The notes under the pieces were generated by a model. That model searched no databases and was not told where the DNA came from. It was given only the letters and a program-made list of their open reading frames with translations. A DNA stretch of 64,000 nucleotides. It comes from Humidesulfovibrio sp. (GTDB taxonomy: Bacteria > Desulfobacterota > Desulfovibrionia > Desulfovibrionales > Desulfovibrionaceae). The stretch covers positions 1 to 64,000 of the forward strand of contig NZ_JAVHLD010000009.1 in assembly GCF_031082295.1 (NCBI RefSeq), in the 5' to 3' direction. Every line of letters starts with the position of its first letter. Position 1 is the first letter of the stretch. Below, in pieces: positions 3,601-63,483 of this stretch. The position numbers and the translations under genes are program-made.

Positions 3601-4902
3601 AACACGGCAATAGGACGGACTCACGTAAAGAAAACGCCCCTCGGGGTCCACCTTGACCAAGAGGTCTGTCTGATGTTCCACTAGAAGGCGGTACTTTTCC
3701 TCGTTTGCCGCAAGGTCCGCGGTACGCAGCCCCACCTCCGTGCGCAGGCGCCGATTGAAGAGATACAGGCCAATCCCCACCACGGAACCGAACAGGAAAA
3801 GGATGCCCGCCACGCCTGCGCCAAGCCAGACCATGCGGCGCTCCCTGGCCGTCATGGAAGCCCGCACATTCTGATAGAGCAGGTCATCCACGGGAAAACC
3901 CGGCGCAAGCAGGCCGAGCTTCTCATAGTCCGCCGCCATCCTGCGCCAGCGCTCCGGATTCACATGGCCCAGTTCCACCAGTTCCGGCTGGATGAGCTCA
4001 CGCATGGCTTCAGCCTCGTACACCAGGTCATCCACAGATTTGTCCTGGCTGTGACGAGAATATATCAGCTCGGCCATCTCCTGCGGGTGGGCCATGGCAT
4101 AACGCCAGCCCCGCTGCGTCGCACGGACGAACCGCTCGACAAGGCCCGGGTTATCGCGGACCATCCTCTCGGTGGTTGTCAGGCAATCGCCATAAAAATC
4201 CGAGGAATAATTCAGGGGCCGCATGATTGCCGGCGCAACGCCGCGCTTGACCATCTCATGGGGCTCGTCGGTCAGATCGGCGGTCTGGGCGTCAACCCTG
4301 CGCTGAAGGAGATCGTCGAGCGTCCAGGTATGCGGCACGATGGTGTAGGACTCCGCGGCAAGGCCTTCGTTGGCCAGCATGACCATCAACTCCGGGTCCG
4401 TGGCAGGATCGGCCATGATGCGCTTGCCGCGCAAATCTTGCGGGGTCAAAATGCCGGAGTCCTTGCGTGTGAGGACAATGTTCGGCGAATGCTGGAAAAT
4501 GGCGGCGATGACGACGACAGGTCTGCCCTTCTGGCGTTCGAGCATCACCCCGGCGCCATCCACCGCAAAGTCGGCGTCTGCGTCCACAAGAGCCTGAGTC
4601 GGCACGATGCCCCGGCGGCCCTCGATGAAGGTGACGCCCAGCCCCTCATCCGCATAAAAGCCCATCTCGGCGGCAGCGTAGTATCCTGCGGAATGAAACT
4701 GGTGCCGCCGCTTCAGCTGCAGGCGGACTTTGTCGAGTTGGGGCCCCGTGGAGGCGGCGGGAGAGGCGCCCAAGGCAGGTTCGAGCGGGTTGAGCAAAAC
4801 GCCGAAGGCGAGCACCAAGCACAGCATGATGCCCATGCGGCAAAGCATCACCATGTGTCTGGAGACCTTGCCAGCAAAGGCCGCCTCGTCAGAAATGGAC
4901 AT
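643..4902 (-). CDS. Hybrid histidine kinase with NMT1-like periplasmic domain, five PAS domains and receiver
   Basis: The 1419-aa protein is a membrane-bound multi-sensor hybrid kinase. In order: an N-terminal membrane anchor (about 17-37); a periplasmic NMT1/THI5-like solute-binding domain (about 55-345, with the typical [16 protein letters not shown] opening); a second membrane helix (about 355-380); five PAS domains, several with PAC-like tails (about 390-1010); HisKA with phospho-acceptor His1054 in [10 protein letters not shown]; HATPase_c with DTGVGI and GAGLGLAI boxes; and a C-terminal receiver with phospho-acceptor Asp1346 in MDIQMPV and a conserved KP. The ATG at 4902 has a GGGGGG ribosome site and avoids overlap with the upstream gene; the open frame extends to 5310 but overlaps the PilZ coding sequence. 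The ligand is unknown; NMT1 domains bind pyrimidine, nitrate or sulfonate-like solutes. No DNA-binding partner is adjacent. Confidence 0.9.
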
Positions 4903-5038
4903 CAACCCCCCTGGCACGACGAGAATGAAAGGGTTCTCCCAACTTGGCACCAACCTAGCACCGGCAGTGACATCTGACAACTGCGAGAGTCCGCGCTCGT
5001 CGCCTTCGCCAAATGGGCACTGCCGGAGACGGCCAAGG

Positions 5039-6193
5039 CTAGAGGCCGCCCCCCTGCTCAAGCTCCACAAGACGCACCAGGGCTCGGCGCAAGTCTTCCC
5101 CGAGCCCTTCGAAGGAGAGCGCAATTTCATAAGGCCCGCCCTCGCTCTCGCGCTCCAGCCGGACCACAAGGCAGACCAGGCGCAACGCCGGCGCGCCGGG
5201 GTGGTCGCCAGCCAGCACGACCTCAACCCGGGTGCCGGGCAGAACGGCCTCGGACGACTGGCAGAGCATGCCGCCGAAGCTGATGTTCCGCACCCTGAGC
5301 GCCAGGCCATGGTGCGCAGGGCTCGCGAACAGCATCGTCAGGCCCAGGGGCGCACGCGGGAACTGGCGGCTCTTTTCCGTGTAGGAGCAGGCCCTGTTGC
5401 GGGTGATCTTGGCCTCGTACAAGGCCTCGTCGGCGCGGCCGACCATGTCGCGGGCGTTGATGGCGTCCTCCGGGAAGGTCGCCGTGCCGAGGCTCACGGT
5501 CAACGGCACAGCCGTGCCTTGCACCTGCACAGGCTTCCGCTCCACGGCCTGGCGCAGGCGCTCCGCAGCCGCCCTGGCCTGCTCCGCGTCGGTATGCGGC
5601 AGGATCAAGGCGAACTCCTCACCACCGTAGCGGACCACATGGTCAAAGGTTCGCGCGGTGTCTCGCAGGACCCCCGCCACCGACTGCAAGGCGTCGTCGC
5701 CAGCGAGATGGCCGTAGGTGTCGTTGAAGCGTTTGAAATGGTCCACATCGACCATCAGCAGCGAGAACCGCTGCCCGAAGCGCTTGAAGCGCTCCACCTC
5801 GCGCTGGATGGCGTCGTTGAAGTAGCGGCGGTTGTAGAGTCCGGTGAGTTCGTCCACCAGTGCGCCGCGCTCTTTCTGCAGCAGCACCTGGACTTCGACG
5901 ATGACCGGCTCGCGCATGCGGGGGTGCAGGTTCATGAAATAGTCGCACACCGCCACGCGCAGGCCCACATCCCGGCCCAAGGCCAGGGCCAGGCCCTCCT
6001 TGTGGCTTATTATCTCGCTCCAGTAGCAGCGTGACTCCGAATCATCAAATCGCATGCGGGTCAGCAGGTACAAGGCGTCCGCAAAGGCCTGTTCGCCCTG
6101 GCCCAGTTCGCTGTTCAGAGTGCCCTCGCTCAGCCCGGCCTGAAGCAACTGCTCCCGCACCTCGAAAGACTGGCACACCCTCTGCTCGCTCAT
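5039..6193 (-). CDS. Diguanylate cyclase with C-terminal PilZ domain
   Basis: The 384-aa cytoplasmic protein has no membrane helix. An N-terminal helical region of unknown type (about 1-110) precedes a GGDEF domain that starts at DELTGLYNRRYF and carries an intact active site GGEEF at 190-194. An RTFD motif five residues before it matches the RxxD product-inhibition site, so the cyclase is probably active and feedback-inhibited. The C-terminal part holds RxxxR (RQFPR) followed by NISFGG, the two halves of a PilZ c-di-GMP-binding site. The protein may thus make and sense c-di-GMP. The ATG at 6193 with GGGGGTG upstream is preferred to a TTG at 6214. It lies 136 nt upstream of the hybrid kinase on the same strand and may be co-transcribed with it. 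Confidence 0.9.
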   Translation of the reverse strand: MSEQRVCQSFEVREQLLQAGLSEGTLNSELGQGEQAFADALYLLTRMRFDDSESRCYWSEIISHKEGLALALGRDVGLRVAVCDYFMNLHPRMREPVIVEVQVLLQKERGALVDELTGLYNRRYFNDAIQREVERFKRFGQRFSLLMVDVDHFKRFNDTYGHLAGDDALQSVAGVLRDTARTFDHVVRYGGEEFALILPHTDAEQARAAAERLRQAVERKPVQVQGTAVPLTVSLGTATFPEDAINARDMVGRADEALYEAKITRNRACSYTEKSRQFPRAPLGLTMLFASPAHHGLALRVRNISFGGMLCQSSEAVLPGTRVEVVLAGDHPGAPALRLVCLVVRLERESEGGPYEIALSFEGLGEDLRRALVRLVELEQGGGL

Positions 6194-6670: not shown

Positions 6671-8185
6671 TCAGCAAGTCTGCATCTTGGTGATGATATC
6701 GGTCAAGTCGTCCGCCAGCCGCGCCAGTTCTTCCACGGCCAGAGTCGCCTCGGCCATGTCGCGGGCTGCCCGGTCGGAAACCTCGCGCACCAGCCCGACG
6801 GAACGTGAGATTTCCTCGGCCGAGGCGGACTGCTCTTCCGAGGCCGTGGCGATATTGCGCACCTGGTCCGCGGACCCCTGGGATATGCGCAGGATCTCCC
6901 GCAGGGCCTGTCCGGCGGAGTCGGCAAGGGAGGTGCTGCGTTCCACAGCCTCGGCGGCTCCGCCCATGCCCTCGGAAGCACGGCGCGCGCCGTCGCGCAC
7001 GGCGTTGATGCCCGTCGCCACCTGCTGGGTGGCCTGCACGGTCTTCTCGGCGAGCTTGCGGACCTCGTCGGCCACCACGGCGAAGCCGCGCCCGGCATCT
7101 CCCGCGCGCGCGGCCTCGATGGCGGCATTCAGCGCCAGCAGGTTTGTCTGGTCGGCGATGTCGTTGATGACGTTCAGGATTTGGCCGATACCTTCCACCT
7201 GCACGCCGAGTTCGGCAAGGCGCTCCTGCATGGTCTGTGTGCGCTCGGACACGCTGCGTATGGCCGAAATGACATCGCCCACCACGCGGGCGCCCTGCTC
7301 TGCCTGCTGGCGCGCGGTGTCCGCGCCCTGGGCGGCGGAGGAGGCGTTCTTGGCCACCTCCACAACGGCAACGCCCATCTGCTCCATGGAGGCGCTGATC
7401 TCGCCCACGCGCGATTTCTGGGCCTCGCTGCCGCGTGCGGTCTGCCCGATGCCAGCCGAGAGCTGGACCGAAGCCTCGCGCAGGCGGGCGCACAGGGCGT
7501 TGGCGTCAAGCGCGGTCCTGCTGATGCCCTGGTCCTTCTCCACCAGGGTCTGCTCCTTCTGCTTCAGCGCGGTCATGTCCAGGTACAGGCACAGGCCGCC
7601 GATGCAGTGGCGATCTGTGTCGTACAGCGGAAAGACGTTGGCAAGGACGTGGCGCGTGCCGCCCCTGTGGCCCTTGATGGCGACCTCCAGGTTGCGGAAG
7701 ACCTCGCCGTCCTTGATGCTGCGGGCCACAGCGGTTTTTCGGCCCGGCTCGTTGTAGAATATCTGGGCCAGCGTCTGGCCGTAGTAGTCCTCCGGGCGGC
7801 CCGAGAGCTCCAGCATGTCCAGGCATTCCTTGTTGGAGAACACGGCGCGCTCCTGCTCGTCCACAAGCAGGAAAGGCACGGGCAGGCCGCCCAGGATGCC
7901 CTGGGCAAGCCCGGTCTGGTGCTTCAGCTCGGCAGCAGTCTTCGCCTCCTCCGCGGCGAGCATCCCCAGGCGCCCGGCCAGGGCGCGCTCTCGCAGGGCC
8001 GCCGCCAGCACCACCGCGCCGGAAAAAAGAAGGGCCACCGCAACATGCGGCAGCCCCAGCCGGAAGGCATCGGCTGAACGAAAGAATTCAAGCCCCGCCA
8101 CAAGCGACAAGGCCAGCGCCAAGGCGGCGGCACCAGTCACGGTCAGCCCTCGCGGGCCGAGGGTCAAGCTTACTGGCGCTGCCAT
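6671..8185 (-). CDS. Methyl-accepting chemotaxis protein with PAS domain
   Basis: The 504-aa protein has two N-terminal membrane helices (about 15-35 and 45-63) with almost no periplasmic loop, then a PAS/PAC domain (about 95-215) and a cytoplasmic MCP signalling domain. The hairpin tip is intact ([20 protein letters not shown] followed by the [12 protein letters not shown] region), so it should bind CheW and CheA. There is no HAMP domain and no periplasmic ligand domain, so the signal is probably sensed by the PAS domain or through the membrane, as in energy- or redox-taxis receptors. It starts 9 nt after the alpha-hydroxy-acid oxidase gene stop, which places it in the lactate operon. That suggests chemotaxis tied to lactate metabolism; the ligand is an inference. 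Confidence 0.92.
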
Positions 8186-8194
8186 AAAAGCCTC

Positions 8195-9208
8195 CTAGGC
8201 TCCGAACAGGATATCCCGTCCGGCGTCGGCCACGCTCGCGCAGCCGGTCAAAATCATTGCCTGGGCAAGTTCACCGCGCACCTGCTCCAGGTACTTGCCC
8301 ACGCCCTCGCGCAGGCCGCCCAGCGCGGCCGTGCAGAAGGGCCGACCGATCATCACGGCGTCCGCGCCCAGGGCCAGCATTTTCAGCACATCGCCGCCGG
8401 TGCGCACGCCGCCGTCCACAAGGATGGCCACCTGGCCCTTCACCGCGGAGGCAACGTAAGGCAGAACCTCCGCGGTGCCGGGGGTATGGTCCAGCACGCG
8501 GCCGCCGTGGTTGGAGACAACGATGCCCGCGGCTCCGGCGTCCACCGCACGCTTGGCGTCGTCCGGCGTCATGACGCCCTTGAGCACGAACTTGGCGGGC
8601 ACGTGGCTGATGATGTCCTTGAGCTTGTCCAGAGGCTTGGGCCCCACGGGCCGCCCCATGAGGCGCAGGGTCACGAGCCCTGCGGCGTCGATGTCCATGC
8701 CCACGATGTCCGTGCCGGTGGCGACGGCCTTGTCGAGCTTTTCATAAAGCTCCTTGTCGTCCCAGGGCTTGATGAACGCAATGCCCGCGCCGCCGAGAGC
8801 CTCAATGGCCGCGAAACCGGATTCGTGGATGAAGGGAGGCACGCCGTCGCCGGTGCAGCCCAACACGCCCTTGTCCACGCACCCGCCCAGAACCGCGTCG
8901 CAGTATTCCTGCTCGGTGATCTTGCCGCCCATGTTGAAGGACACGCCGCCTATGGGCGCGGCCAGCACCGGCATGGACAGCTTGCGGCCCAGGAGCGTGG
9001 TGGAGGTGTCCGGCAGCTCGGCCCCGTGGATAAGGCGCATGTTGAAGCGCACCTGGGCCAGGGCCGCGACGTTGTTCATGAACGAGGAGCCGGTGCCCAG
9101 GCCGCCCATGCCGGGCACTTCCCCGGCGCAGGCCTTGCCGTTGCAGATGGGGCACACCTTGCAATAGCCCGCCATGAGATCGCGTGCCTTCTTGCGAACT
9201 TCCTTCAT
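8195..9208 (-). CDS. FMN-dependent alpha-hydroxy-acid oxidase/dehydrogenase-like protein
   Basis: The 337-aa protein has the FMN_dh TIM barrel of the lactate/glycolate oxidase family: VLAAPIGG near the start, the SNHGGR motif that supplies the catalytic His and Arg, and the phosphate-binding ILVDGGVRTGGDV and ADAVMIGRPF segments. It is shorter than classical LldD (about 380 aa). It carries an unusual N-terminal cluster of four Cys (CKVCPICNGKAC, then GEVPGMGG), which could hold a metal centre or a disulfide. It sits 31 nt downstream of the fused LldEF gene and 9 nt upstream of the chemoreceptor gene. Lactate or a related 2-hydroxy acid is the likely substrate, by context. The SNHGGR motif is intact, so catalysis is plausible. 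Confidence 0.85.
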   Translation of the reverse strand: MKEVRKKARDLMAGYCKVCPICNGKACAGEVPGMGGLGTGSSFMNNVAALAQVRFNMRLIHGAELPDTSTTLLGRKLSMPVLAAPIGGVSFNMGGKITEQEYCDAVLGGCVDKGVLGCTGDGVPPFIHESGFAAIEALGGAGIAFIKPWDDKELYEKLDKAVATGTDIVGMDIDAAGLVTLRLMGRPVGPKPLDKLKDIISHVPAKFVLKGVMTPDDAKRAVDAGAAGIVVSNHGGRVLDHTPGTAEVLPYVASAVKGQVAILVDGGVRTGGDVLKMLALGADAVMIGRPFCTAALGGLREGVGKYLEQVRGELAQAMILTGCASVADAGRDILFGA

Positions 9209-60479: not shown

Positions 60480-60509
60480 TTGACGCCAACAGCCCGGCTT
60501 GTGTATATT
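60480..60509 (+). promoter_or_regulatory. Sigma-70 promoter of the riboswitch-peptide operon
   Basis: TTGACG (60480-60485) and TATATT (60504-60509) are 18 nt apart, both close to consensus. Predicted start is near 60516, right at the beginning of the cobalamin aptamer, 33 nt after the LysR stop. Confidence 0.75.
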
Positions 60510-60515
60510 TTTCGG

Positions 60516-60672
60516 ACTGAGGCAACATCTCAGAACACGGTTGAAGTCCGTGACGGTCCCGCCGCTGTAACCGGGGACGCCGTGCGCAAGGCGAGAGCCG
60601 CCACTTTCAGGTCAAAACCTGGGGGGAAGGTCGCGCACAGGCGGATGATCCGGAAGTCAGAAGATCTGTTGC
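60516..60672 (+). ncRNA. Cobalamin riboswitch aptamer
   Basis: The conserved core is recognisable: GAAGTCCGTGACGGTCCCGC, then CGCTGTAA, a variant B12 box around GCCACTTTCAGG, GGGAAGGT, and the final GGATGATCCGGAAGTCAG. It is followed by a strong terminator (60706-60745), so adenosyl- or methylcobalamin probably switches the operon off by premature termination. Unusually, the gene it controls is not a B12 synthesis, transport or isozyme gene but a small peptide and a radical SAM enzyme. Confidence 0.92.
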
Positions 60673-60705
60673 TTCAATAATTTTCAAGGAATCTGATGGC
60701 AAAGG

Positions 60706-60745
60706 ATTCCGGCCGCTCTGCATGGGGCGGCCGGAATCCTTTTTT
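60706..60745 (+). terminator. Riboswitch expression-platform terminator
   Basis: GGATTCCGGCCGC (60706-60718) and GCGGCCGGAATCC (60727-60739) form a perfect 13-bp stem with an 8-nt loop, followed by six T. It lies between the aptamer and the peptide ATG (60770), so it can control read-through. Confidence 0.93.
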
Positions 60746-60769
60746 ATTACCCTTAATTCGGAGGTCGAC

Positions 60770-60907
60770 ATGGAGACGAAGAAAGACGCCCAGAAGAAGA
60801 CGAGCACGGCCAAGGACAAGGACATCATCGCCTTCCGCAAGAAATGCTCCGCCGACGGCACGGGCCTTTCGCACTACATCCTCGTCAGCGAGAAGGCGAA
60901 GCCCTAG
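60770..60907 (+). CDS. Short Lys-rich peptide, probable RiPP precursor (CbpA-like)
   Basis: The 45-aa peptide starts METKKDAQKKTSTAKDKD and continues IIAFRKKCSADGTGLSHYIL. It has a Lys/Thr/Ser-rich leader-like half, a single Cys (26) and a conserved-looking core around CSADGTGLSHY (26-36). CGGAGG sits 5 nt before the ATG; the frame also opens at 60722 but that start has no ribosome site and overlaps the terminator. It lies downstream of the cobalamin riboswitch and 2 nt before a radical SAM gene. This agrees with what I recall of the CbpA family of modified peptide precursors named for cobalamin-riboswitch control; exact family membership is from memory. Confidence 0.8.
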   Translation: METKKDAQKKTSTAKDKDIIAFRKKCSADGTGLSHYILVSEKAKP

Positions 60908-60909
60908 CC

Positions 60910-62319
60910 ATGACCGCAAAGAGTTCCGCAAGCGGGGCGGCCCTCGCGGGCCGCTTCGCCAACACCGGCGACGGCCCGCAGCTCATCCCCGTGGACATCG
61001 GCCACAAGACGCACATGGCGCTCATCGAGCCGGACACGGCCTTCTGGTCCCTGGTGCGCAAAAGCTCCCTGGCCAAAACGCTGCGCTCGCCCGAGTTCCT
61101 TGACCAGGTCCGCGCCAATTCGGGCGCCTTCGCCAAGGAGATGCACGACCTGCGCTTCGGCCTCACGCCCTCGGCGGTGTATTTCAACCCCACAGCGCGC
61201 TGCAACCTGAACTGCGGCTACTGCTACATCCCCACCGAGATGCGCCGCAACGGCGAGCACATGCCCACCGAGCGACTGCTCGACGCCCTGGGCAGGCTCA
61301 AGGACTGGTTCACCGCGCACCTGCCCGCGGGCCGCCTGCCGCAGATCGTCTTCCACGGGGCCGAGCCGCTGCTCAACCACGAGGCCGTGTTCGCAGGCAT
61401 CGAGCGCTATGCCGGAGACTTCAGCTTCGGCGTGCAGACCAACGCCACCAACCTGGACGAGGCCGCCATCGAGTTCCTGACCAGCCACAAGGTCGGCATT
61501 GGGCTGTCGCTGGACGCCGCCACCGCGCGCATCGCCAACCGCACGCGCACCACCTGGGGCGGCAAGGGCGTGTACGATGTCGTGGTCCAGGCCATGGAGC
61601 GCTTGAAGGGCTACCCGCTCTACAACGTCATCTGCACCGTCACCAAGGAGAACATGCGCACCCTGCCCCAGCTGGTGGAATTCTTCCACGGGCACGAGGT
61701 TCCGGTGACCATGCTGAACATCCTGCGCTGCACCATGCCCGCCTCCAGGGAGCTCAAGCCGGACGAGGCCGAGGCCGCCAAGCACTACACCGCCGCCCTG
61801 GACCGCTCCTACGAGTTGTACCAGAAGACCGGCCGCAAGCTTGTGGTGGCCAACTTCGCCAACATCCTGCTGTCCATCGTGGCGCCCACGGCCCGGCGCC
61901 TCATGTGCGACATCTCGCCTTGCGGCGGCGGACGCTGCTTCTTCGCCCTGGCCCCGGACGGGGGTCTCTTCCCGTGCAGCGAGTTCATCGGCCTGCCGGA
62001 TTACAACGGCGGCAACCTCTTCAAGGACAAACTTGACGACGTGCTGGTGTCCCCGGCCTTCAAGCGCGTGACGGGCCGCAAGGTGGAGGACATCGACTCC
62101 TGCCGGACCTGCGCCATTCGCCACTTCTGCGGCTCGCCCTGCCCGGCGGAAGCCCAGGAAATGAATGGCGGCATGGACAAGAAGGGGGCCTTCTGCGCCT
62201 TCTACGAGGAGCAGGTCCGCTACGCCTTCCGGCTCCTGGCCGACAAGAAGGCAGATGCCTTCCTCTTTGACGGCTGGGACAAGGACGTGGAGACCGTGTT
62301 CGACGTGAACCAGTCCTGA
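60910..62319 (+). CDS. Radical SAM/SPASM peptide-modifying enzyme (CbpB-like)
   Basis: The 469-aa enzyme has the radical SAM motif CNLNCGYC (about 98-105) for the SAM-bound 4Fe-4S cluster and the GGE-like IVFHGAEPLL. A Cys-rich SPASM-type C-terminus (about 335-425; CDISPCGGGRC, GLFPCSEF, CRTCAIRHFCGSPC, FCAFYEE) suits two auxiliary clusters. An N-terminal region of about 90 residues could recognise the leader. Such enzymes make thioether or C-C crosslinks or other changes in RiPP precursors. It starts 2 nt after the precursor stop and ends at a terminator, so peptide and enzyme form one closed operon. I call it CbpB-like from context and recall. Confidence 0.88.
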   Translation: MTAKSSASGAALAGRFANTGDGPQLIPVDIGHKTHMALIEPDTAFWSLVRKSSLAKTLRSPEFLDQVRANSGAFAKEMHDLRFGLTPSAVYFNPTARCNLNCGYCYIPTEMRRNGEHMPTERLLDALGRLKDWFTAHLPAGRLPQIVFHGAEPLLNHEAVFAGIERYAGDFSFGVQTNATNLDEAAIEFLTSHKVGIGLSLDAATARIANRTRTTWGGKGVYDVVVQAMERLKGYPLYNVICTVTKENMRTLPQLVEFFHGHEVPVTMLNILRCTMPASRELKPDEAEAAKHYTAALDRSYELYQKTGRKLVVANFANILLSIVAPTARRLMCDISPCGGGRCFFALAPDGGLFPCSEFIGLPDYNGGNLFKDKLDDVLVSPAFKRVTGRKVEDIDSCRTCAIRHFCGSPCPAEAQEMNGGMDKKGAFCAFYEEQVRYAFRLLADKKADAFLFDGWDKDVETVFDVNQS

Positions 62320-62367
62320 GGCAACCCCGCGCCGCTTCCGGGCAACCGGCGCGCGCAAGCCTTCTTG

Positions 62368-62408
62368 TGTGCGGATGACAGGAGCGCTTCTTGTCATCCG
62401 CACATTTC
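62368..62408 (+). terminator. Terminator after radical SAM gene
   Basis: TGTGCGGATGACA (62368-62380) and TGTCATCCGCACA (62392-62404) form a perfect 13-bp stem over an 11-nt loop, followed by TTTC. It closes the riboswitch operon and separates it from the exporter genes. Confidence 0.75.
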
Positions 62409-62454: not shown

Positions 62455-63483
62455 ATGGCCGCCATAACACAGCTCCTGCAACGCATCCCCGCCAAGGTCC
62501 GTCTGGGCGTGCTGGCGCTCGCCCTCGCGGGCGCGGCCTTCTACGGGGTTCGCCACTTCGTCCAGGCCGGAACGGCAACCTTCCAGGGCTACGTGGAGGC
62601 GGAATACGTCCATGTGGCCTCGCCCGTGGCCGGTGCGCTGGCGGAATTGCGCGTCAGCCGGGGCCAGGAGGTGGCGGCCGGTGCGCCGCTCTTCGTGCTG
62701 GAACAGGACTACGAGCGCGCCGCCCTGGCCGTGGCCACCTCAGCCCTCAAGCAGGCCGCCGACAGGCTGGCCAATGTGCAAAAGGGCCAGCGCCCCACCG
62801 AACTGACCGCCCTCAGCGCGCGGCTGGGCCAGGCCAGCACCGCACTGCGCCTGGCCGAGACCGAGTTCAAGCGCCGCCAGAAGCTCTATGCCGAGCGCAC
62901 CATCTCCGCCGAGGAGATGGACCGCGCCCGCGCTGACTACGACCTCAAGGCCCAGCAGGTGCGCGAGATGTCGGCCAACCTGTCCACGGCCAAGCTTGGC
63001 GGGCGCACGGACGAGATCTCCGCCGCCCAGGCCGAGGTGGAAGCGGCCAAGGGCCGCGTGGAGCAGGCGGCCTGGACACTTGCGCAAAAGTCCCAGGCCG
63101 CGCCCGCCGCCGCCCTGGTCTTCGACACGCTGTACACCCAGGGCGAATGGGTTCCCGCAGGCAAGGCCGTTGCCGTGCTTCTGCCCCCGCAGAACATCAA
63201 GGTGCGCTTTTTCGTGCCCGAGGAAAAAGTCGGCGCCCTCAGCGTGGGCCAGGAGGCCCAGGTGCGCTTCGACGGCGGCCCCGCTGGCGCGGCGGGCACC
63301 GTGCCCGTGCGCGTGAGCTACATCTCGGCCCAGGCCGAGTACACCCCGCCCATCCTCTACTCCAGCGACAACCGGGCCAAGCTGGTGTTCCTGGTGGAGG
63401 CCCGGCCAGCACCGGAACAGGCGCCGCTGCTGCACCCCGGCCAGCCTGTCGACGTTCGCCTGACCTTCGGCTCCGCGAAGTAG
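62455..63483 (+). CDS. HlyD/YbhG-type efflux adaptor
   Basis: The 342-aa membrane-fusion protein has an N-terminal anchor helix (about 16-32, LGVLALALAGAAFYG), a biotinyl-like barrel-sandwich domain (HVASPVAGALAELRVSRGQEV at about 52-72), a long helical hairpin (about 80-210, ALKQAADRLANVQKGQRPTE) and a beta-barrel C-terminus. It couples an ABC exporter to an outer-membrane channel, as YbhG does for YbhFSR. The ATPase gene follows 4 nt downstream. A palindromic operator lies just upstream. Confidence 0.9.
   Translation: MAAITQLLQRIPAKVRLGVLALALAGAAFYGVRHFVQAGTATFQGYVEAEYVHVASPVAGALAELRVSRGQEVAAGAPLFVLEQDYERAALAVATSALKQAADRLANVQKGQRPTELTALSARLGQASTALRLAETEFKRRQKLYAERTISAEEMDRARADYDLKAQQVREMSANLSTAKLGGRTDEISAAQAEVEAAKGRVEQAAWTLAQKSQAAPAAALVFDTLYTQGEWVPAGKAVAVLLPPQNIKVRFFVPEEKVGALSVGQEAQVRFDGGPAGAAGTVPVRVSYISAQAEYTPPILYSSDNRAKLVFLVEARPAPEQAPLLHPGQPVDVRLTFGSAK

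Follow-up and report, generated by a model that had tools for sequence, protein, structure and literature searches.

The 64,000-nucleotide stretch of Humidesulfovibrio sp. DNA analysed here (contig NZ_JAVHLD010000009.1; the window) carries a compact two-gene operon, cbpAB, at positions 60480-62405, in which a cobalamin riboswitch precedes the genes for a small peptide, CbpA, and a radical S-adenosylmethionine (SAM) enzyme, CbpB. We read cbpAB as a cobalamin-repressed operon whose modified peptide serves the assembly or salvage of cobamides (probability about 0.8). Repression by cobalamin is inferred from the anatomy of the operon and the known behaviour of riboswitches. The first-pass annotation had proposed that the product serves corrinoid or cobalt handling, for example as a cobalophore or a signal. 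Corrinoid handling is supported by the switch, by the family to which the genes belong and by the cobamide operons in which relatives lie; the guesses of a cobalophore and of a signal are not supported, as laid out below.

A cobalamin riboswitch or cobamide genes were found at cbpAB in 54 of 56 distinct CbpB genomes, namely in all 36 carriers drawn from the window's phylum (the window and G040 included), in all nine distant genomes (L040, L042-L049) and in nine of eleven further genomes of the Omnitrophota phylum (L110-L120). The window-like loci L036, L038, L039 and L041 stand outside this tally; L037 is, judged by its length, the contig of G040.

The cbpAB operon and the proteins it encodes

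The Rfam model RF00174 matched the leader of the operon over its full length (63.6 bits against a gathering score of 31.5, E 2.2e-13), confirming the cobalamin aptamer that had been named in the first-pass annotation; it is the sole match in the window above a gathering score. A promoter-like site overlaps the 5' edge of this match (Table 1), and two such sites were observed in the scanned 2-kb stretch against a mean of 0.2 in shuffles. Terminator-like sites numbered three against 2.2 in shuffles, the one at 60701-60742 having by far the longest stem, and aptamer and terminator together fold at -110 kcal/mol (z -5.0). Since the hairpin 3' of cbpB has a short T tail (TTT) and was absent from the list of the terminator scan, it is a likely, not a certain, final terminator. 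The earlier description of a closed operon thus stands for the promoter-like site, the aptamer, the 19-pair terminator and both genes, and its closing terminator is only likely.

Table 1. Features of the cbpAB operon, in window coordinates.
Feature	Position	Strand	Basis
Sigma-70-like promoter TTGACG-N18-TATATT	60480..60509	+	10 of 12 consensus matches
Cobalamin riboswitch aptamer RF00174	60506..60687	+	covariance model, 63.6 bits
Intrinsic terminator hairpin, 19 pairs and T-rich tail; presumed expression platform	60701..60742	+	
GGAGG ribosome-binding site, 5 nt 5' of the cbpA start	60760..60764	+	sequence
cbpA, precursor peptide of 45 amino acids	60770..60907	+	TIGR04164 match, codon-position bias
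cbpB, radical SAM/SPASM peptide maturase of 469 amino acids	60910..62319	+	TIGR04163, Pfam, model
Hairpin 3' of cbpB, 17 pairs, likely terminator	62367..62405	+	z -4.9

Both gene products scored above the curated NCBIfam equivalog cut-offs of the families to which they had been assigned: CbpA reached 43.9 bits with TIGR04164 (cut-off 35) and CbpB, whose gene starts 2 nt after the cbpA stop codon, 694.8 bits with TIGR04163 (cut-off 375). Judged by these matches, the window pair is a new member of the named, uncharacterised CbpA/CbpB family. No paper on the CbpA product was among the open-licence PubMed Central (PMC) papers that the searches listed, in agreement with the earlier statement that this product is uncharacterised. 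The TIGR04164 match takes in CbpA residues 20-42 (60827-60895) and with them the single Cys, residue 26, and the GLSHY motif. Among six window-type loci, 14 sites of the CbpA core vary, 2, 1 and 11 of them at codon positions 1, 2 and 3, a bias that marks CbpA as a translated, constrained peptide.

Of 51 CbpB loci, 48 have a CbpA-type peptide upstream of the enzyme, and the remaining three (L042, L083 and L085) begin at contig ends; in a second set, all eleven Omnitrophota-phylum loci have one. The searches demanded parts of the motif (C, G, L and H in the 51-locus search), so that the constancy of these residues is partly built in; the informative part is that every uncut CbpB locus has such a peptide. 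Eleven loci had been missed by the first motif search, and an open reading frame listing showed the variant QVGLSHY there. The peptides are 29 to 50 amino acids long (with the start codon chosen by script), their spacing to cbpB varies, and they follow the pattern Arg-x-x-Cys, four to eight residues, [TVAN]-GL-[SA]-H-[YF]; among 45 distinct peptides, the Arg at Cys-3 is present in 44, and the Ser and the Tyr in 43 each. The core had been given as GTGLSHY. Taken as a unit, this core varies among relatives, with other residues in place of its leading G or its T in QVGLSHY, NTGLSHY, GAGLSHY and ANGLSH; what stays constant is the Cys and, four to eight residues on, [TVAN]-GL-[SA]-H-[YF].

CbpB matched the Pfam families PF04055 (radical SAM) and PF13186 (SPASM) above their cut-offs and contains the CxxxCxxC motif. 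Across 35 CbpB sequences C98, C102 and C105 are invariant, as are C333, C338, C356, C398, C401, C407, C411 and C429. The predicted structure of CbpB (mean predicted local distance difference test score 89.3) was nearest to the solved fold 5why/5wgg, which we take to be CteB (Z 34.5, root-mean-square deviation (rmsd) 3.4, 377 residues aligned, model residues 24-445), followed by anSME (4k38; Z 32.9, rmsd 2.7, 347 aligned) and ChlB (9gmc; Z 32.5, rmsd 2.8, 346 aligned), which are tied; a fold family absent from the list of structures compared is not thereby excluded. A profile search put the same three structures on top, with 5wgg nearest. Because the fold alignment starts at residue 24, before the barrel, an N-terminal peptide-recognition domain in the modelled CbpB is plausible.

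Downstream of the operon the window holds a gene for an HlyD-type adaptor (62455-63483) and, from 63489 and running off the window edge, what we read as an ABC ATPase gene. These genes are kept only in the window's closest relatives (BtuD-like matches) and are not a general neighbour of cbpAB. The window's own genome (G000) contains four further cobalamin riboswitches (L087-L089): two lie on C5 facing apart, one on C55, and one on C71 precedes cobT.

Cobamide genes beside cbpAB in relatives

CbpB is patchily distributed. A draw of 395 genomes from the window's phylum contained 36 with CbpB above the cut-off, and a draw of 107 from the phylum of locus L048 (Omnitrophica/Omnitrophota) contained 13 with CbpB; further CbpB contigs come from bins whose titles name Planctomycetota, Nitrospirae, Candidatus Magnetomicrobium and Syntrophaceae. 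The Syntrophaceae locus, L047, is counted as distant here and may belong to the window's phylum, Desulfobacterota.

Within the phylum draw, a cobalamin riboswitch lies upstream of cbpA in 34 of the 36 carriers, and in the remaining two, G326 and G140, cbpAB sits within corrin gene clusters. The cluster of G140 (L054) reads cobD-cobQ fusion, cobO, cbiA, cbiC, cbpA, cbpB, a CbiX-like gene, cbiM, cbiN, thiC, cbiQ, cbiO, cbiD, where cobO was named by similarity, cbiA, cbiN and the CbiX-like gene are our own reading, and the CbiC matches are below cut-offs. Both kinds of link occur in G060 (L055), in which the riboswitch is accompanied by a corrin cluster just downstream on the opposite strand. An apparent loss of the riboswitch in L041 was rejected, as the contig has 62 N at that place. 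A second and stronger cobalamin riboswitch (102.7 bits) was seen at L080:1889-2074 (-), downstream of cbpB and on the operon's strand.

Among the nine distant loci, seven (L042, L044-L049) have cbpAB within cobamide operons. In L044-L049 it stands 3' of an AsnB-like gene that is preceded by several of cobU, cobT, cobS, cbiB and cobD, and the downstream genes include several of DUF71, btuF, btuC, btuD and cobO (in L048, BtuF and CobO are below the NCBIfam cut-offs and BtuC and BtuD are our reading). L042, which is cut just before cbpB, has relatives of CobQ, DUF71 and BtuFCD downstream. A riboswitch precedes the operon in L045, the only one of the seven operon loci in which one was found, and lies upstream in the other two distant loci, L040 and L043. 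Cobamide genes also adjoin cbpAB in eight of the eleven further Omnitrophota-phylum loci, with cbpAB at the operon head in L111, L112 and L114 and in mid-operon in L110 and L117-L120. The riboswitch stands at the operon head in L110 and L117-L120, and immediately 5' of cbpA in L111, L112, L114 and L115.

Some of the genes in these operons deserve a separate mention. In L048 the genes around cbpAB include one that is AsnB-like, one for DUF71 and one for another radical SAM protein (4848-5822, 7372-8046 and 8053-8787). The AsnB-like ATP-pyrophosphatase is short, has no glutaminase domain and gave a weak zinc-ribbon match, and the additional radical SAM protein matched no NCBIfam family at E 1e-8. 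Relatives of the AsnB-like gene also stand 5' of cbpA in L044-L049 and in L110. DUF71 was considered as a constant partner of CbpAB and rejected for the window's phylum, where it occurs in 1 of 36 carriers and 3 of 36 others. At L046:3502-4257 a CbiZ-type adenosylcobinamide amidohydrolase (PF01955) adjoins DUF71 in one operon; the part of PMC3541065 consulted describes DUF71 and CbiZ as strictly anti-correlated in bacteria.

The operon contexts bear on two readings outside corrinoid handling. A B12-dependent function might be replaced, at times of B12 scarcity, by the modified peptide itself or by a cofactor released from it in the way that pyrroloquinoline quinone (PQQ) is made from PqqA. In other bacteria, isozymes that work without B12 are among the targets of B12 riboswitches, and small modified peptides can be cofactor precursors. 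However, placement in operons for cobamide assembly and uptake fits the making or recycling of B12, and among the partly annotated neighbour clusters no protease or target enzyme recurs beside cbpAB, which makes this replacement very unlikely. Even less probable in our estimate is a secreted signal or antimicrobial ribosomally synthesized and post-translationally modified peptide (RiPP) under B12 control. Radical SAM/SPASM maturases often make secreted RiPPs, yet outside the cobamide operons no exporter or immunity gene recurs beside cbpAB in the same partly annotated clusters, and the motif is much alike across phyla, unlike that of most antimicrobial peptides. We found nothing that points to the signal suggested by the first-pass annotation.

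Which half of the pathway the product might serve was judged from CbiD, a marker of de novo corrin-ring synthesis. Of the nine distant genomes, eight gave no CbiD match, among them every one of the seven in which cbpAB lies in a cobamide operon, and these seven therefore appear to salvage corrinoids rather than make them. In the window's phylum, by contrast, CbiD is present in 35 of 36 carriers (two of them with only partial matches below the cut-off) versus 23 of 36 hand-picked non-carriers (p 0.0006). The non-carriers comprised 21 genomes from carrier families and 15 from others, all at least 95% complete; the carriers include two genomes of 67 and 79% completeness. CobT did not discriminate carriers, occurring in 34 of 36 against 29 of 36 others (p 0.15, no significant difference). 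The part of the pathway common to both kinds of genome is its late half together with corrinoid uptake, and the presence of cbpAB in operon genomes in which CbiD was not found speaks against a role in collecting cobalt and favours one in the late assembly or the salvage of cobamides.

This result bears directly on a cobalophore or cobalt chaperone, in which the modified peptide would bind cobalt and feed its insertion into the corrin ring. The Cys, His and Tyr of CbpA are capable of metal binding, L053, L054 and L117-L119 have a CbiM-type gene 2 to 5 kb on the 3' side of cbpB (in L054 with the gene we read as CbiX-like between cbpB and the CbiM-type gene), and nearly all carriers of the window's phylum have CbiD. 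Against this, cobalt insertion would be useless in the distant carriers, seven operon genomes among them, in which CbiD was not found, and cobalamin riboswitches sense corrinoids, not cobalt. The cobalophore proposed by the first-pass annotation is therefore disfavoured, and we hold it to be improbable.

Several observations weigh against assembly or salvage of cobamides as the role of cbpAB. In most of the 36 phylum-draw carriers, the window included, the riboswitch is the sole link to B12; few of the 36 have any cobamide gene closer to cbpB than about 9 kb. No riboswitch above the gathering score was found in L042, L044 and L046-L049, where the stretches or contigs start in or near the operon, and L113 and L116 have neither a riboswitch nor any of the tested cobamide genes in the stretch scanned. 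CbiD can be missed in metagenome bins, and the Omnitrophota carriers are mixed in this respect, L117-L119 having CbiD close by. Finally, most corrinoid makers do without CbpAB, as the phylum draw shows, and only 2 of 17 genomes in the window's own family carry it.

Lower-ligand genes in carriers and non-carriers

BzaA, BzaB and BzaF are relatives of ThiC at the first step of the oxygen-independent pathway to the benzimidazole lower ligand; the part of PMC6461909 consulted considers the three jointly and reads bzaF, or bzaA together with bzaB, as a sign of this pathway. Bza-type ThiC paralogues were found in none of the 36 CbpB carriers versus 11 of 23 CbpB-free CbiD genomes (p 5e-6), where the comparison used only the 23 CbiD-bearing negatives and the carrier zero was established by copy number, plus a tree for the single second copy (G278). 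These 11 non-carriers have at least two ThiC-family genes. Their extra copies form three Bza-type clades apart from ThiC, each with 100/100 support, and lie within 14 kb of CobT or CbiD in nine of the 11 genomes, the exceptions being G325 and G015. One protein of the ten scanned, L091 of G296, exceeded the BzaB cut-off (741.2 against 700). The tree placed only four single copies of carriers (G000, G140, G390 and G255), and the others are taken as ThiC from their number only; three of the 36 carriers have no ThiC-family match at all. The window's own genome has one ThiC-family gene, which lies outside the Bza-type clades on a long branch, and hence no Bza-type paralogue was found there.

The same pattern was seen with other countings. 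At family level, f91 is the one carrier family out of 12 with Bza-type copies, which occur there in genera other than those of the carriers, versus 9 of 10 other families. Phylum-wide, a hand count of the listing gave at least two ThiC-family copies in 1 of 36 carriers versus 83 of 359 non-carriers (p 0.002), and all 16 further carriers have exactly one copy. Within family f91 the carriers G255 and G390 have one copy, and each of the negatives G296 and G371 has three copies, with two of the three next to CobT.

These counts support a special case of cobamide assembly, in which CbpAB produce, release or deliver the base or loop part that is attached by CobT, and so stand in for the Bza and BluB routes; the presence of CobT in 34 of 36 carriers would agree with it. 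The counts follow clades, however. When the comparison is restricted to the 13 negatives that have CbiD and come from carrier families, the difference shrinks to 0 of 36 versus 2 of 13 (p 0.07). The third negative of f91, G276, resembles the carriers in having a single copy. The negatives were hand-picked, 12 of the 23 have neither CbpAB nor a Bza-type copy, and one carrier, G263, has BluB above the cut-off. The absence of Bza in CbpB carriers is for these reasons only a lead, confounded by clade. To our knowledge, no chemistry turns such a peptide into a base, and we regard supply of the lower ligand by CbpAB as unlikely, if slightly less so than cobalt collection.

Two candidate lower-ligand genes in carriers were examined and rejected. 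The ThiC-family gene in the corrin cluster of L054 scored 652.8 bits with ThiC (cut-off 460) and 615.7 bits with BzaB, below the cut-off of 700, and groups with another ThiC (85/85). The second copy of G278 groups with ThiC, though long branches meet there. The ThiC-family genes of four genomes of family f58 (G119, G197, G283 and G378) each contain one in-frame stop (TAG, TAA, TGA and TAA, respectively).

In a related proposal, a part of the cobamide would itself be protein-encoded, with CbpA as its source, or would depend on CbpA as an obligatory carrier; CbpB would convert the segment Cys...GLSHY into a unit that contacts the corrinoid or serves as lower ligand. We give this little credence. 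If true, anaerobes that have neither Bza nor BluB would possess a third route to a complete cobamide, turned on when B12 runs short.

Proposed mechanism and known systems

Taking cbpAB as a cobalamin-repressed operon for cobamide assembly or salvage, we propose the following mechanism. When B12 is abundant, the aptamer would favour the terminator and transcription would stop; when B12 is scarce, cbpAB would be transcribed. CbpB would bind CbpA, perhaps via the N-terminal region of CbpB, and a SAM-derived radical would most likely link CbpA's single Cys with one of the residues of GL[SA]H[YF] in a CteB-like thioether. A Cys cross-link is proposed because the title of 5why names a thioether-bond enzyme and a single Cys is conserved in CbpA. 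The product may remain intracellular, a small factor that interacts with corrinoids and could contact them through its constant His (and Tyr), and would act in the late half of the pathway, in adenosylation, nucleotide-loop attachment or corrinoid intake. The setting would be organisms that make no benzimidazole lower ligand. This contact between peptide and corrinoid is tentative, and we would give it well under even odds. If cbpAB does serve cobamide assembly or salvage, the B12 biology of many anaerobes would use a radical-modified ribosomal peptide, a component absent from the pathway accounts consulted. As a peptide system under a B12 riboswitch in producers without benzimidazole genes, cbpAB is also a concrete candidate for part of the gap (Shelton et al.).

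Among characterised systems CteB (5wgg/5why), which like CbpB combines radical SAM and SPASM domains, is nearest by profile and fold. CbpB is far below the cut-off of the PapB-type ranthipeptide maturases (NF047865; 125.3 bits against 340), and it was for this reason not filed as PapB. In contrast to CteB and PapB, the CbpA precursor has one Cys, and the control of cbpAB and, in many relatives, its neighbours belong to B12. With the PqqA/PqqE pair of PQQ synthesis cbpAB shares a small peptide, a radical SAM/SPASM enzyme and a housekeeping-type role; PqqE is farther from CbpB by fold (6c8v; Z 20.1, rmsd 3.9, 279 aligned), and, unlike in PQQ synthesis, no peptide-processing genes recur beside cbpAB.

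The operons of L042, L044 and L046-L049 resemble the DUF71-B12 salvage operons of PMC3541065 in having DUF71, BtuF and BtuC together. The part of that text consulted contains no 'radical SAM' and one 'peptide', and cbpAB lies outside its account as far as that shows. The closest system is the CbpA/CbpB family itself (TIGR04164/TIGR04163): the window pair has the gene order of its relatives and no defining difference from them. As far as the open-licence PMC literature was searched, the operon context and the Bza pattern described here are additions to the accounts of this family.

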